NCBI GenBank assembly: GCA_016872055.1
Contig: VHBH01000001.1
Span: 62,001 to 126,000, forward strand
DNA: 64,000 bases
Source: Nitrososphaerota archaeon
Lineage (GTDB): Archaea; Thermoproteota; Nitrososphaeria; Nitrososphaerales; Nitrosopumilaceae
Direction of reading: 5' to 3'
Part shown: positions 19,985 to 29,615 of the stretch, in pieces
Position numbering within the stretch: the first letter of the stretch is position 1
How the letters are laid out: the number at the start of each line of letters is the position of its first letter
Translations under genes and position numbers: made by a program
Notes under the pieces: generated by a model
Told to the model about the DNA's origin: nothing
Seen by the model: the letters and a program-made list of their open reading frames with translations, nothing else
Databases searched by the model: none

Positions 19985-20344
19985 TCACTTTCGGTATTGC
20001 TCTATTATTTTAAGAGCATTAAATGGAAATTTAGCAAAATTTAGATCTTTTTCTGCAGAAATAAGTAGAATTTCTTTATTAATTGGAAAACTCATTACGA
20101 TCACCTTATCCCTATACGACATGGCAAATCTCACAGGACCTAGTTCTTGGTCAAACTCTTGGCGCATTCTGACTCGTAATGCAAGCTCCATGTAGAGCAT
20201 CTCGTCTTTTTTGGTGTCTTCAAGAGTGTTTTTTCCCTGAGTCATTCCGCCCGCTTCCAAGTGACCCTTGTCATTAATCAGTCCCACAAAACGTATGGAG
20301 GAGTCTAATTTTTTAACTGACTCACATAATACGTCTTTTTCCAT
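19985..20344 (-). CDS. DUF6659-like protein, paralog 1 of 3 in the window
   Basis: A 119-residue protein of a family seen three times here (also 24492-24872 and 52906-53280). Shared features: a start helix with Cys, the strand SIRFVGLINDKGHLEAGG, a GxxxLEDTKKDE turn, a helix with MRQEFDQELGPVRF, and paired strands VIVMSFPINKEILLISAE. The alpha/beta order resembles a roadblock/profilin-like sensory or regulatory fold, but this is inference. The family name DUF6659 is from memory. It is divergent from the PHA genes. Confidence 0.8.
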   Translation of the reverse strand: MEKDVLCESVKKLDSSIRFVGLINDKGHLEAGGMTQGKNTLEDTKKDEMLYMELALRVRMRQEFDQELGPVRFAMSYRDKVIVMSFPINKEILLISAEKDLNFAKFPFNALKIIEQYRK

Positions 20345-20388
20345 TACGATTCCTCCATGATTTTAGATGACATTTAGAAGACGATCTA

Positions 20389-20396
20389 TTTATTGC
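20389..20396 (+). promoter_or_regulatory. TATA box of the phaE-phaC operon
   Basis: TATTTATT is centred about 26 bases before the phaE ATG at 20418, fitting a leaderless archaeal promoter. It lies in the 73-base space between phaE and the divergent DUF6659-like gene. Confidence 0.5.
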
Positions 20397-20417
20397 GAGC
20401 TTTTGTATTTAATCAAC

Positions 20418-20981
20418 ATGTCACAGGACGTCAAGCTTCCGCTCGATTATTTCAAACATACATCCCTATTCTGGACTGACTTATTGCATCTCATGTCAGG
20501 TAAACCCATTGCACTAACATCAGTCGGACCATCAAGAAATTGGGCAAATGATGCGAAAAAGGTCATAACAGAATTAATTGATGCAAATGATGATCTAATA
20601 GATTTCAACCAGAGATTGATTGAATATTACAAGCAGCTCTCTGAGACATGGATAGAATCACAGAAGAAAGTTAATGTAAAAATTACCACAATTCCACAAG
20701 ATGTAGAAAGTCTGGAAGCATACAAGCGAGTTTGGATTGACATTTTTGAAAATGATTTTACCCAACTTTTTGATTCCGAGAAATTTGGCGAAAACTACGG
20801 AAAATTAGTATCAGCGGAATTGGAATTAAGTCGACATTGGGAGAGCATTACCAATGTAATTTTACAATCGATGAAACTCCCAACACGAAAAGAGATTGAC
20901 GAAGTCTACAAAGAATTACACGAGCTAAGAAAAAGAATCACAAAATTAGAAAAGAACGATGAGAAGATAAATGGAAAATGA
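20418..20981 (+). CDS. phaE: PHA synthase subunit PhaE
   Basis: Non-catalytic partner of class III polyhydroxyalkanoate synthase. The 187-residue protein is helical, contains the W-rich segments expected (FWTDLLHL; WIESQKK; YKRVWIDIFENDF; LSRHWESI) and ends in a coiled coil (YKELHELRKRITKLEKN). The assignment rests on this pattern and on direct coupling to phaC, whose ATG lies 11 bases inside the phaE end. ATG at 20418 (MSQDVKLPLD) was preferred to an upstream frame start at 20367 because of the TATA spacing. Confidence 0.9.
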   Translation: MSQDVKLPLDYFKHTSLFWTDLLHLMSGKPIALTSVGPSRNWANDAKKVITELIDANDDLIDFNQRLIEYYKQLSETWIESQKKVNVKITTIPQDVESLEAYKRVWIDIFENDFTQLFDSEKFGENYGKLVSAELELSRHWESITNVILQSMKLPTRKEIDEVYKELHELRKRITKLEKNDEKINGK

Positions 20982-22032
20982 GATAATTGATCCAAAATTA
21001 ATGGAGGAATTCCTCAGTTTTACAAAAAATGTTACAGAGGCACCAAATCTAGTTCCAGTCCCAGATGAAATAACATTAGAGTCAACTCCGTTTGATGTTG
21101 TATATGAGCAAGACAAAATGCGGCTACTCCATTATAGGCCACTCGTTGAAAAGCAAACCAAGACTCCCTTTCTGATAAGTTATGCAATCATCAATCGATT
21201 TCACATTCTAGACATTCAACAAAAGAAAAGCTGGGTAAGAAAGTTGATCGAGAGTGGTATTGATGTATACATGATTGATTGGGGTACACCTTCAAACATT
21301 GACAAATATCTCGACTTTGATGACTATGTTAATTTGTACATGGACAATTGCGTAGATTTCGTAAGAAAAGAAGCCCAAGTCGACAACATATCGGTGCAGG
21401 GATATTGTACTGGTGGAACAATAGCCACAATTTACTCGACACTACACCCAAAAAAGGTGCGTAATTTGGTAGTAACCGCGCCAGTGATTGATGGATGGAA
21501 GGATACCACCGTAGTAAGCAACATGGCAAAACACATGAAAATTGACATGTTAGTAGATACAATCGGAAATATGCCTCCAGAATTCATGTATTATTGCTTT
21601 TCAATCCTCAAACCATTTGAGCAGGGATTAGAAAAATATTACAAATTTTTCAAAAATATACACGATAAAGAATTTGTGGATAATTTCCTGCGCATCGAAA
21701 AATGGCTTAGTGATACTCCACCCATACCGGGAGAGTTATTCAGGCAATGGATGAGGGATATTTATCAGGAGAATCTACTAATCCAAAACAAGATGTATGT
21801 AGGTGGAAAACAAATTAATCTCAAAAATATCACTATGCCAATTTTTGTTCAGGTTGCGGTAGGGGATCATCTTGTCTCACCAGAATGTAGCATGCCCATA
21901 TACTATGCCGTTTCTAGTGAGGATAAAACGATGCGTGTGTATCCAATAGGACATGTTGGAATGATTGCAAGTTCTTTTTCACAAAAGCAAATTTTGCCTG
22001 AGCTTTGTCAGTGGATTAAAGAAAGATCTTAG
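20971..22032 (+). CDS. phaC: Class III poly(R)-hydroxyalkanoate synthase, catalytic subunit
   Basis: Polymerises (R)-3-hydroxyacyl-CoA into PHA storage polymer on granules. The 353-residue alpha/beta-hydrolase fold has the synthase lipase-like box GYCTGGT (nucleophile Cys near residue 145), the catalytic Asp in VAVGDHLVSP and the catalytic His in IGHVGM. The length fits class III. The gene overlaps phaE by 11 bases and is convergent, with a 4-base overlap, to the phasin-AbrB gene. In this cell the 3-hydroxybutyryl-CoA pool of the CO2-fixation cycle is a possible carbon source, though that intermediate has S configuration and an R-specific route is not visible here. Confidence 0.96.
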   Translation: MENEIIDPKLMEEFLSFTKNVTEAPNLVPVPDEITLESTPFDVVYEQDKMRLLHYRPLVEKQTKTPFLISYAIINRFHILDIQQKKSWVRKLIESGIDVYMIDWGTPSNIDKYLDFDDYVNLYMDNCVDFVRKEAQVDNISVQGYCTGGTIATIYSTLHPKKVRNLVVTAPVIDGWKDTTVVSNMAKHMKIDMLVDTIGNMPPEFMYYCFSILKPFEQGLEKYYKFFKNIHDKEFVDNFLRIEKWLSDTPPIPGELFRQWMRDIYQENLLIQNKMYVGGKQINLKNITMPIFVQVAVGDHLVSPECSMPIYYAVSSEDKTMRVYPIGHVGMIASSFSQKQILPELCQWIKERS

Positions 22033-22439
22033 GACTGGCGCTTCTTTTTTTCTAGAGGAATCACAACTACTTGGACTAGGTCGCCTTCATTGATTCGCAG
22101 TGCATCACGTTCTGCTTCTGGAATTGAGATTCTTCCATTACTTCCAATTGTTGTCTTAAAAGCACCATACCCAATGAAGTTTTGCAAAAGATTACCCATA
22201 TTGAAAAATTGTTCCATGGTGTTTTTTTGAGCATTTGACATAGATGCCATAAGATTGGCTTGTGCCTCAGAAGATTTTGTAGTCAGTTCTTTGAGAGTAT
22301 TTACTGGATCAAATTTTTGATTAGTCTCCATGTAAGCTGAAAATGCTTTCATAAATTCTGCCTGTGCACGTCCGCCTTTTTGCACCCATTCTTGAAACAT
22401 AGATAGATAATCTTGGTTATTGTTACCAATCATTGGCAT
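22029..22439 (-). CDS. Phasin-like helical protein fused to an AbrB/SpoVT DNA-binding domain
   Basis: 136 residues in two parts. Residues 1-90 are amphipathic helix with few charges (MFQEWVQKGGRAQAEFMKAF; NLMASMSNAQKNTMEQFF), the pattern of a phasin that coats PHA granules. Residues 95-136 form a swapped-hairpin AbrB domain (TTIGSNGRISIPEAERDALRI, then EGDLVQVVVIPL). Position beside phaEC supports a role in granule coating and in sensing granule load to regulate pha genes; in haloarchaea an AbrB-type PhaR and phasin PhaP do this as separate proteins (from memory). ATG at 22439 is used; a TTTAAATA box lies some 18-20 bases upstream, and a GTG at 22451 is an alternative. Confidence 0.88.
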   Translation of the reverse strand: MPMIGNNNQDYLSMFQEWVQKGGRAQAEFMKAFSAYMETNQKFDPVNTLKELTTKSSEAQANLMASMSNAQKNTMEQFFNMGNLLQNFIGYGAFKTTIGSNGRISIPEAERDALRINEGDLVQVVVIPLEKKKRQS

Positions 22440-22474
22440 TGTTTGGTGCACTACTTATTTAAAGATACCATAGT

Positions 22475-23260
22475 TCAGTGAATAAAACCGAGTGCGATTT
22501 TGACAAATTCTTTCGGATCCTCCACATAAGGCGTGTGGCCGCAGTTTTCCATTCGATAGAACCTACAATCACGAATCTTCTGCACAAAATATTCCGCATA
22601 TTTTATCGGTATTACCGGATCCAGTTCACCCCAGATAACTAGTGTGGGAATTTCTAGCACCTCCAGTTTTGTAGATATTTCTGGTGCATTTTTTAGTCCA
22701 AGAATTGTAGACATGAACGCATATTTTGCGTTGGGCATCAGCATCCTTTGCACGAAACCATCCACGGTGGTTTGGTTAACTTCTTTATTATTTCCAGTCA
22801 TCATGGAGAATGCATTTTTCGCGGTATCATTATCAGGATACAAAGCAGCCATTATGTATGCATCCAACGCAGGAGTCGATTGCTTCATTGCACCTGCAGG
22901 TGAAACTAGAATCAATTTTTCAACATTTTGTTGATTGTGTATTACATAATCAATAGCTATTTGACCACCAAGTGAAGAACCAACCACCGTGACTTTTTTG
23001 ACATTAATTTCTCTCAGAAATGAGGAAATAAAATCAGAGAAAAACTCTGTAGTATAATCCACGTTTGGTTTTTCACTGAGTCCAAATCCGATCAGATCCG
23101 GAACATAAACTGTAAAGTGTTTGCTAAAACTCGGAATTACAAATTCCCATCTTTCTGCGGATGCTCCAAGCCCATGAATGAGTAATAGATTTTTCTTTTC
23201 AGAACCTGCCTTTAGGTATCGAATCCTATTGCCGTCAACAGTTACAAATGCTTCTTGCAT
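22475..23260 (-). CDS. Alpha/beta hydrolase, possible PHA depolymerase or thioesterase
   Basis: 261 residues with all alpha/beta-hydrolase marks: HGLGASAERW oxyanion loop, nucleophile elbow GSSLGG (Ser near residue 96), acid Asp in WGELDPVIP and His in ENCGHTPYVEDP. No signal peptide, so it acts in the cytoplasm. Next to the phasin-AbrB gene on the same strand with a 35-base gap, it could release 3-hydroxyacids from stored PHA, but the fold alone does not fix the substrate. Confidence 0.9.
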   Translation of the reverse strand: MQEAFVTVDGNRIRYLKAGSEKKNLLLIHGLGASAERWEFVIPSFSKHFTVYVPDLIGFGLSEKPNVDYTTEFFSDFISSFLREINVKKVTVVGSSLGGQIAIDYVIHNQQNVEKLILVSPAGAMKQSTPALDAYIMAALYPDNDTAKNAFSMMTGNNKEVNQTTVDGFVQRMLMPNAKYAFMSTILGLKNAPEISTKLEVLEIPTLVIWGELDPVIPIKYAEYFVQKIRDCRFYRMENCGHTPYVEDPKEFVKIALGFIH

Positions 23261-24491: not shown

Positions 24492-24872
24492 CTATGATAC
24501 AACACTGAAGATTGTCACGACTCTTTTTGCTAGGTTTTCAATCTCAACAGTTGGTTCTGCAGAAATCAGCAAAACAATTCGACTAACTGGAAATGGAAAA
24601 CTTATCAAAACCAATCTGTCTCGCCTTGCCGCAAGGTAGTTGATTGGACCAAGAGTTTTATCAAACTCCTTTCGTAGTGACACCCTAGATGCAAATTCCA
24701 TGAAGTCGTCAAGCTTATTCTCATTGTTTTCAAGTGGCGTTATACCATTTTTGAATCCGCCAGCCACCAGTTTGCCGGACTCGTCAATGATTCCAGCAAA
24801 GCGGATATCTTTTTCCTGTATTAGTTGAGCACATTTTGATTCATAGAATTTATTTTGTGCTGAATCACTCAT
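24492..24872 (-). CDS. DUF6659-like protein, paralog 2 of 3
   Basis: 126 residues sharing the family pattern: KCAQLIQEKDIRFAGIIDESGKLVAGG split as helix then strand-turn-strand, GITPLENNENKLDDFMEFA, a basic helix LRKEFDKTLGPINYL, and strands LVLISFPFP and IVLLISAEP. The Gly-Gly turn and the DKTLGP motif are common to all three copies. It lies between the rRNA operon terminator and the decayed gene. Function unknown; possibly a small regulatory or ligand-sensing domain. Confidence 0.8.
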   Translation of the reverse strand: MSDSAQNKFYESKCAQLIQEKDIRFAGIIDESGKLVAGGFKNGITPLENNENKLDDFMEFASRVSLRKEFDKTLGPINYLAARRDRLVLISFPFPVSRIVLLISAEPTVEIENLAKRVVTIFSVVS

Positions 24873-24994: not shown

Positions 24995-28010
<3,016 letters not shown>

Positions 28011-28018
28011 TATTACAC

Positions 28019-28034
28019 GACTATGCACGATGAT
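28019..28034 (-). repeat. 23S rRNA processing stem, 5' arm
   Basis: GACTATGCACGATGAT, the partner of 24971-24986. Together they enclose the 23S rRNA and point to excision as a circular or BHB-processed precursor. Confidence 0.75.
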
Positions 28035-28110
28035 CATTGCGTGGTACTGGGGTACCCCGCTACATCCTTCATACACCACTTTCGTGATGCATTGCATCGA
28101 TGGTTTGTAC

Positions 28111-28126
28111 GTGAAGATTAGTGCAT
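28111..28126 (-). repeat. 16S rRNA processing stem, 3' arm
   Basis: GTGAAGATTAGTGCAT is a perfect 16-base inverted match to 29652-29667 on the other side of the 16S gene. It is the expected archaeal pre-16S processing helix. Confidence 0.85.
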
Positions 28127-28141
28127 CCATCACATTTTTTC

Positions 28142-29615
<1,474 letters not shown>

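Follow-up and report, generated by a model that had tools for sequence, protein, structure and literature searches.

A protein of 134 residues encoded beside the class III PHA synthase genes of a Nitrosopumilaceae archaeon is, judged by sequence comparison, the AOA ortholog of haloarchaeal PhaR. An array of half-sites at the start of its own gene, taken together with the reported repression of phaRP by haloarchaeal PhaR, makes autoregulation its best-supported function, one that is well supported in silico. The gene lies in a stretch of 64,000 nucleotides (the window), which comes from a 1.24-Mb AOA assembly that is 98.8% complete.

N. maritimus is reported to contain PHA-like granules (PMC11082331); when the PHA genes of that organism were listed in an AOA survey whose KEGG search included PhaR, PhaR was not among them. 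In the open-licence literature, no PHA regulator or granule protein of AOA seems to have been described, and Nitrosopumilus, AbrB and PHA are not brought together in any paper; a description of an AOA PhaR may yet exist in subscription journals. Haloarchaeal PhaR is already known. The AOA orthologs, the duplication of their helices, the operator spacing shared with haloarchaea and the co-occurrence with phaC all appear undescribed in that same literature.

The PHA locus and its phaR-type gene

The genes and protein segments of the locus, in window positions, are:

20418 to 20981, plus strand: phaE, class III PHA synthase subunit (PF09712, 2.4e-17)
20971 to 22032, plus strand: phaC, class III PHA synthase catalytic subunit (TIGR01836, 422 bits against a cut-off of 365)
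22029 to 22433, minus strand: phaR-type gene, 134 aa, with a helical N-terminus and a C-terminal AbrB domain
22056 to 22163, minus strand: AbrB domain (aa 91-126), signature FKTxxxSxGRISIPxAERxAL, matching PDB 2glw at E 2e-8
22170 to 22307, minus strand: helix unit 2 (aa 43-88), with the one unit of Nitrososphaerales PhaR as its homolog (hhalign E 9e-12)
22323 to 22412, minus strand: amphipathic helix unit 1 (aa 8-37; predicted helix 9-37), a tandem copy of unit 2
22475 to 23260, minus strand: alpha/beta hydrolase, candidate PHA depolymerase (NF050089, 8.9e-34, below its cut-off)

The phaR-type gene is convergent with phaC, tail to tail, and the ends of the two genes overlap by 4 nt. The open reading frame is genuine and conserved, although the span of 22029-22439 given in the preliminary description has to be shortened. 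The gene, on the minus strand, starts at ATG 22433 (MIGNNN...), a start conserved among relatives, and not at 22439, because the extra upstream Met-Pro is unconserved in them. That a helical amphipathic part and an AbrB domain share one polypeptide is borne out by helix prediction and by two domain models of the AbrB/SpoVT type: TIGR01439 matches at 5.6e-7 (29.2 bits, cut-off 28.3) and PF04014 at 2e-5 (24.9 bits, cut-off 24.7), at about aa 93-126. Conservation across the protein is highest in the AbrB core.

The alpha/beta hydrolase gene lies just upstream of the phaR-type gene on the same strand, and in nearly all relatives it adjoins either phaR or phaC. It is a candidate for the intracellular PHA depolymerase of AOA. 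Even in a genome where phaR and phaC are separated by 45 kb (G057), the hydrolase gene is kept beside one of them. Farther along the window are the minus-strand rRNA genes, SSU at 28144-29614 and LSU at 25002-27998, and the open reading frames called in 25002-29614 are spurious.

Co-occurrence with phaC

The link to phaC claimed at the outset holds both for the adjacent locus and across genomes. A protein search placed PhaR-type proteins in 34 of 61 relatives, and the class III phaC model picked out those same 34 plus one more. PhaR is thus found in 34 of the 35 phaC-positive relatives and in none of the 26 phaC-negative ones, with a weak match to the phaC model in one genome (G041, E 2e-4) counted as a generic hydrolase. 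The odd genome, G007, belongs to the same genus and carries only a divergent phaC (locus L057, contig C13), with neither PhaR nor the phaE promoter element described below; its phaC is possibly a laterally acquired synthase. A survey of 300 genomes of the phylum gave the same picture: PhaR is present in 47 of 49 phaC-positive genomes, and there were no strong matches in the 251 others (Fisher p about 5e-53, a value that ignores relatedness, the counts not being independent because AOA sequences are related). Among the homologues, a survey of which the preliminary description had called for, 31/31 match TIGR01439, and every strong match lies in a phaC-positive genome. In three genomes (G037, G053 and G057) phaR lies 4-45 kb from phaC and both genes are retained, so the association is not merely one of physical linkage. 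No relatives were found on viral contigs.

Orthology to haloarchaeal PhaR

The reference haloarchaeal system is the phaJ-phaR-phaP-phaE-phaC cluster of Haloferax mediterranei (Cai et al. 2015, as reviewed in PMC9049629). The plasmids of Haloferax larsenii and Haladaptatus carry the genes in the order phaR-phaP-phaE-phaC, which is also the order published for H. mediterranei (PMC10948481). In haloarchaeal PhaR, termed bifunctional, a short N-terminal stretch precedes an AbrB-like domain at the C-terminus (PMC9049629, PMC10948481); through that domain the protein is reported to repress its own phaRP promoter, which contains four tandem repeats (PMC9049629).

The AbrB domain encoded in the window aligns with PhaR of H. 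larsenii, Haladaptatus and Haloarcula at Smith-Waterman scores of 122-133 and about 60-67% identity, as against 26-50 for the AbrB paralogs of its own genome and about 20 for shuffles; the comparison covers these three haloarchaeal sequences. The alignment brings out a common signature, FKTxVxSxGRISIPxAER, and in two related AOA families (L054 and L055) PhaR aligns with H. larsenii PhaR over nearly the full length. The helical N-terminus of AOA PhaR may be homologous to that of haloarchaeal PhaR: the register is the same, but the hhalign E is only 0.004 for Nitrososphaerales and only 0.19 for Nitrosopumilaceae. Like its haloarchaeal counterpart, the AOA protein is linked to class III phaEC and has half-sites in its own promoter.

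Orthology changes how the architecture is to be read. The preliminary description had taken the joining of the two parts as a departure from haloarchaea; since haloarchaeal PhaR already has an N-terminal part and an AbrB-like domain, the apparent fusion is the ordinary architecture of this regulator family. The idea that an unrelated phasin had been fused to a regulator was accordingly rejected. There are nonetheless real differences: the AOA gene is convergent with phaEC and is not first in a phaRPEC cluster, the AOA locus lacks a phaP gene, and the AOA helical part is longer.

Other known systems are more distant. Bacterial PhaR/AniA, the PHB accumulation regulator, has another DNA-binding domain; of the bacterial PhaR domains, PF07879 was not listed for any of the 31 members scanned, and PF05233 appeared in one, at E 0.02, which is chance level. 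The archaeal SpoVT/AbrB protein of PDB 2glw (92 aa) aligns with the AbrB core but with nothing else (profile positions 92-127), leaving the helical extension without a counterpart.

The helical N-terminus

The N-terminal ~88 residues, two thirds of the protein, are predicted to be helical. Structure prediction by AlphaFold returned two N-terminal helices (9-37 and 43-87), but at low confidence, and with a pLDDT of about 57 the models are too weak to inform mechanism. Helix 1 is amphipathic, with a mean moment of 0.48 compared with 0.21 in shuffles, and its amphipathicity is significant in 25/25 homologues tested.

Most Nitrosopumilaceae have two tandem copies of the helical unit, in constant register, for example YDPTEMFKDWIQKGGKAQLEFMKTFGSMM / FDPVETLKEIASKGAKAQSDFMENLGSMQ; this, too, sets the AOA protein apart from haloarchaeal PhaR. 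For two members the local score of the repeat is 76, where shuffles score 21, and most members reach p <= 0.05 (p 0.013 for the window protein). PhaR of Nitrososphaerales has a single unit and Nitrosopelagicus-type genomes have one shortened unit.

The preliminary description had called this region phasin-like and granule-coating, a label that finds no sequence support. Pfam and NCBIfam scans of 31 members gave no recurrent match to phasin families, and profile-profile comparison of the AOA helices with haloarchaeal PhaP and with AOA and haloarchaeal PhaE gave nothing better than reversed controls, so phasin identity was rejected. PhaP of haloarchaea is encoded beside phaR, near phaE-phaC, and is small and helix-rich in appearance, but it has neither profile similarity to the AOA helices nor a detectable homolog in AOA genomes, where the search yielded one marginal match (0.005) inside an unrelated long frame. 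Because no phasin profile matches the helices, granule binding is argued from amphipathicity, gene neighbourhood and analogy.

A candidate operator at the phaR start

Two features lie at the start of the gene:

22425 to 22447, minus strand: ACCA-N6-GCCA-N5-TGGT across the start codon of phaR, a candidate operator for autoregulation
22456 to 22463, minus strand: TATA-like box of phaR, TTTAAATA, at a conserved position about 25-30 nt upstream of the start

The start region is marked by ACCA/TGGT half-sites at a spacing of about 10 bp. The pattern RCCA-N5-TGGY occurs near the start of 31 of 46 distinct phaR genes with a long N-terminus, compared with 0.45 in shuffles, and it is also present in the phaR promoters of H. 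larsenii and Haladaptatus. It is specific to phaR: it is found at 28/39 phaR starts and at 1/180 starts of seven control genes, and the palindrome is missing from the starts of phaE, phaC and the hydrolase gene. In H. larsenii the promoter sequence ACCATCTGTTGCCATCAAATGGT is the sole three-half-site match on a 344-kb plasmid; the window operator, ACCAAACAATGCCAATGATTGGT, has identical spacing and shares 14 of 23 bases with it. The AOA candidate operator overlaps the start codon, whereas the haloarchaeal one lies ~60-70 nt upstream.

Part of the AOA site thus overlaps coding sequence, and the codon for Gly-3 is GGT in 48/51 cases, as against 103/457 glycine codons elsewhere in phaR, an excess that indicates constraint on the DNA and not on the protein. 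All of this makes phaR itself the likely target of PhaR. That said, the array, identified in silico in the promoters of most Nitrosopumilaceae, is absent in its strict form from phaR of Nitrososphaerales and Nitrosopelagicus, so operators differ or regulation has been lost there. Nor is the strict start-codon palindrome unique, since 4 of its 7 whole-genome matches are at phaR starts and the others are scattered. The three-half-site pattern was rejected as a regulon marker; the window's own genome has two matches, one of them at phaR.

The phaE promoter

Upstream of phaE are two further features:

19985 to 20344, minus strand: DUF6659 gene, divergent from phaE, whose presence coincides with the phaE element
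20381 to 20401, plus strand: phaE promoter element ACGATCT-ATTTATT-GCGAGCT, 7-bp direct repeats around the TATA

The TATA region at 20389-20396 had been put forward as the PhaR target, through which the protein would bind the phaE promoter and control synthesis directly. A conserved element is indeed there. Its 21-bp consensus, GCGATCT-ATTTATT-GCGATCT, recurs in the phaE promoter at about 25 loci of Nitrosopumilaceae, it matches at most once per genome and, among the Nitrosopumilaceae matches, at the phaE position, and its reversed control never matched; moreover, the genome that lacks PhaR (G007) also lacks the element. We consider control of phaE by this route decidedly unlikely all the same. 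Of 25 loci where a DUF6659 gene diverges from phaE, all have the element; of 19 loci lacking that gene, none does. PhaR-type genes occur in both groups, so the element is not attributed to PhaR, though this is not proof, since the division into two groups could stem from one loss or gain. Starts of phaE are without the half-sites seen in the phaR promoter, and haloarchaeal PhaR acts on phaRP (PMC9049629).

DUF6659 genes, found at 19985-20344 and 24492-24872 in the window, lie on either side of the PHA locus in many members of the Nitrosopumilaceae, and their sequence pattern is reminiscent of roadblock/profilin-like sensor proteins, although this is an impression only. In Nitrosopelagicus-type phaR promoters (L117, L133, L140 and L145) the TATA is immediately preceded by GCGATC or ACGATC, a sequence that resembles the phaE element in its left half and perhaps represents a factor-specific BRE.

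A model for PhaR in AOA

What we infer for PhaR, namely DNA binding, repression, granule binding and titration, can be combined in one scheme, which we regard as probable: self-repression through the AbrB domain, docking of the helices on the granule or its synthase, and titration by the granule surface. The C-terminal AbrB domain, presumably dimeric, would repress phaR by binding the ACCA/TGGT half-sites spaced out between that gene's TATA box and its first codons, while the N-terminal amphipathic helices would attach to the PHA granule or to its synthase. Free granule surface would draw PhaR off the DNA and more would be made; once the surface was covered, free PhaR would shut off its gene. 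One AOA protein could in this way do the job of the haloarchaeal phaR-phaP pair, which fits the role of sensor and regulator proposed earlier. A bolder form, held more tentatively, is that granule coat and autorepressor are a single protein, a direct sensor of surface area that replaces the PhaP/PhaR pair, with an operator spacing common to two archaeal phyla.

The helices might instead serve only to oligomerise an ordinary AbrB-type autoregulator or to bind PhaE or PhaC, never touching the polymer. They have no sequence link to phasins, the unit could contact PhaE, and in AOA, which lack PhaP, PhaE and PhaC alone may cover the granules. We nevertheless find this somewhat unlikely, given that the protein strictly accompanies phaC although the two genes need not be adjacent, that a strongly amphipathic helix has been duplicated and retained, and that haloarchaeal PhaR has been described as 'bifunctional' (PMC10948481). 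At the other extreme, the protein may be mainly a structural component of the granule, its AbrB domain left over as a module for dimerisation. The helical portion does make up most of its length, and AbrB-fold domains are able to act as oligomerisers, but a domain that is the best conserved part of the protein and has a matching half-site array at its own promoter makes this very improbable. The Pfam name of PF04014, MazE_antitoxin, would point to the antitoxin of a MazE/MazF-like toxin-antitoxin pair, a suggestion that is hardly credible: the window has no adjacent toxin gene, the neighbours being phaC and the alpha/beta hydrolase, and PHA genes and the hydrolase are neighbours in essentially all relatives.

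Significance

Few organisms on Earth are more abundant than AOA. The phaR-type gene is a named candidate for the regulation of PHA in these archaea, with a defined putative DNA site. It ties the PHA genes of AOA and haloarchaea into one shared archaeal module of PhaE, PhaC and PhaR, and it reduces the control of carbon storage in AOA to a simple question of EMSA and granule binding.
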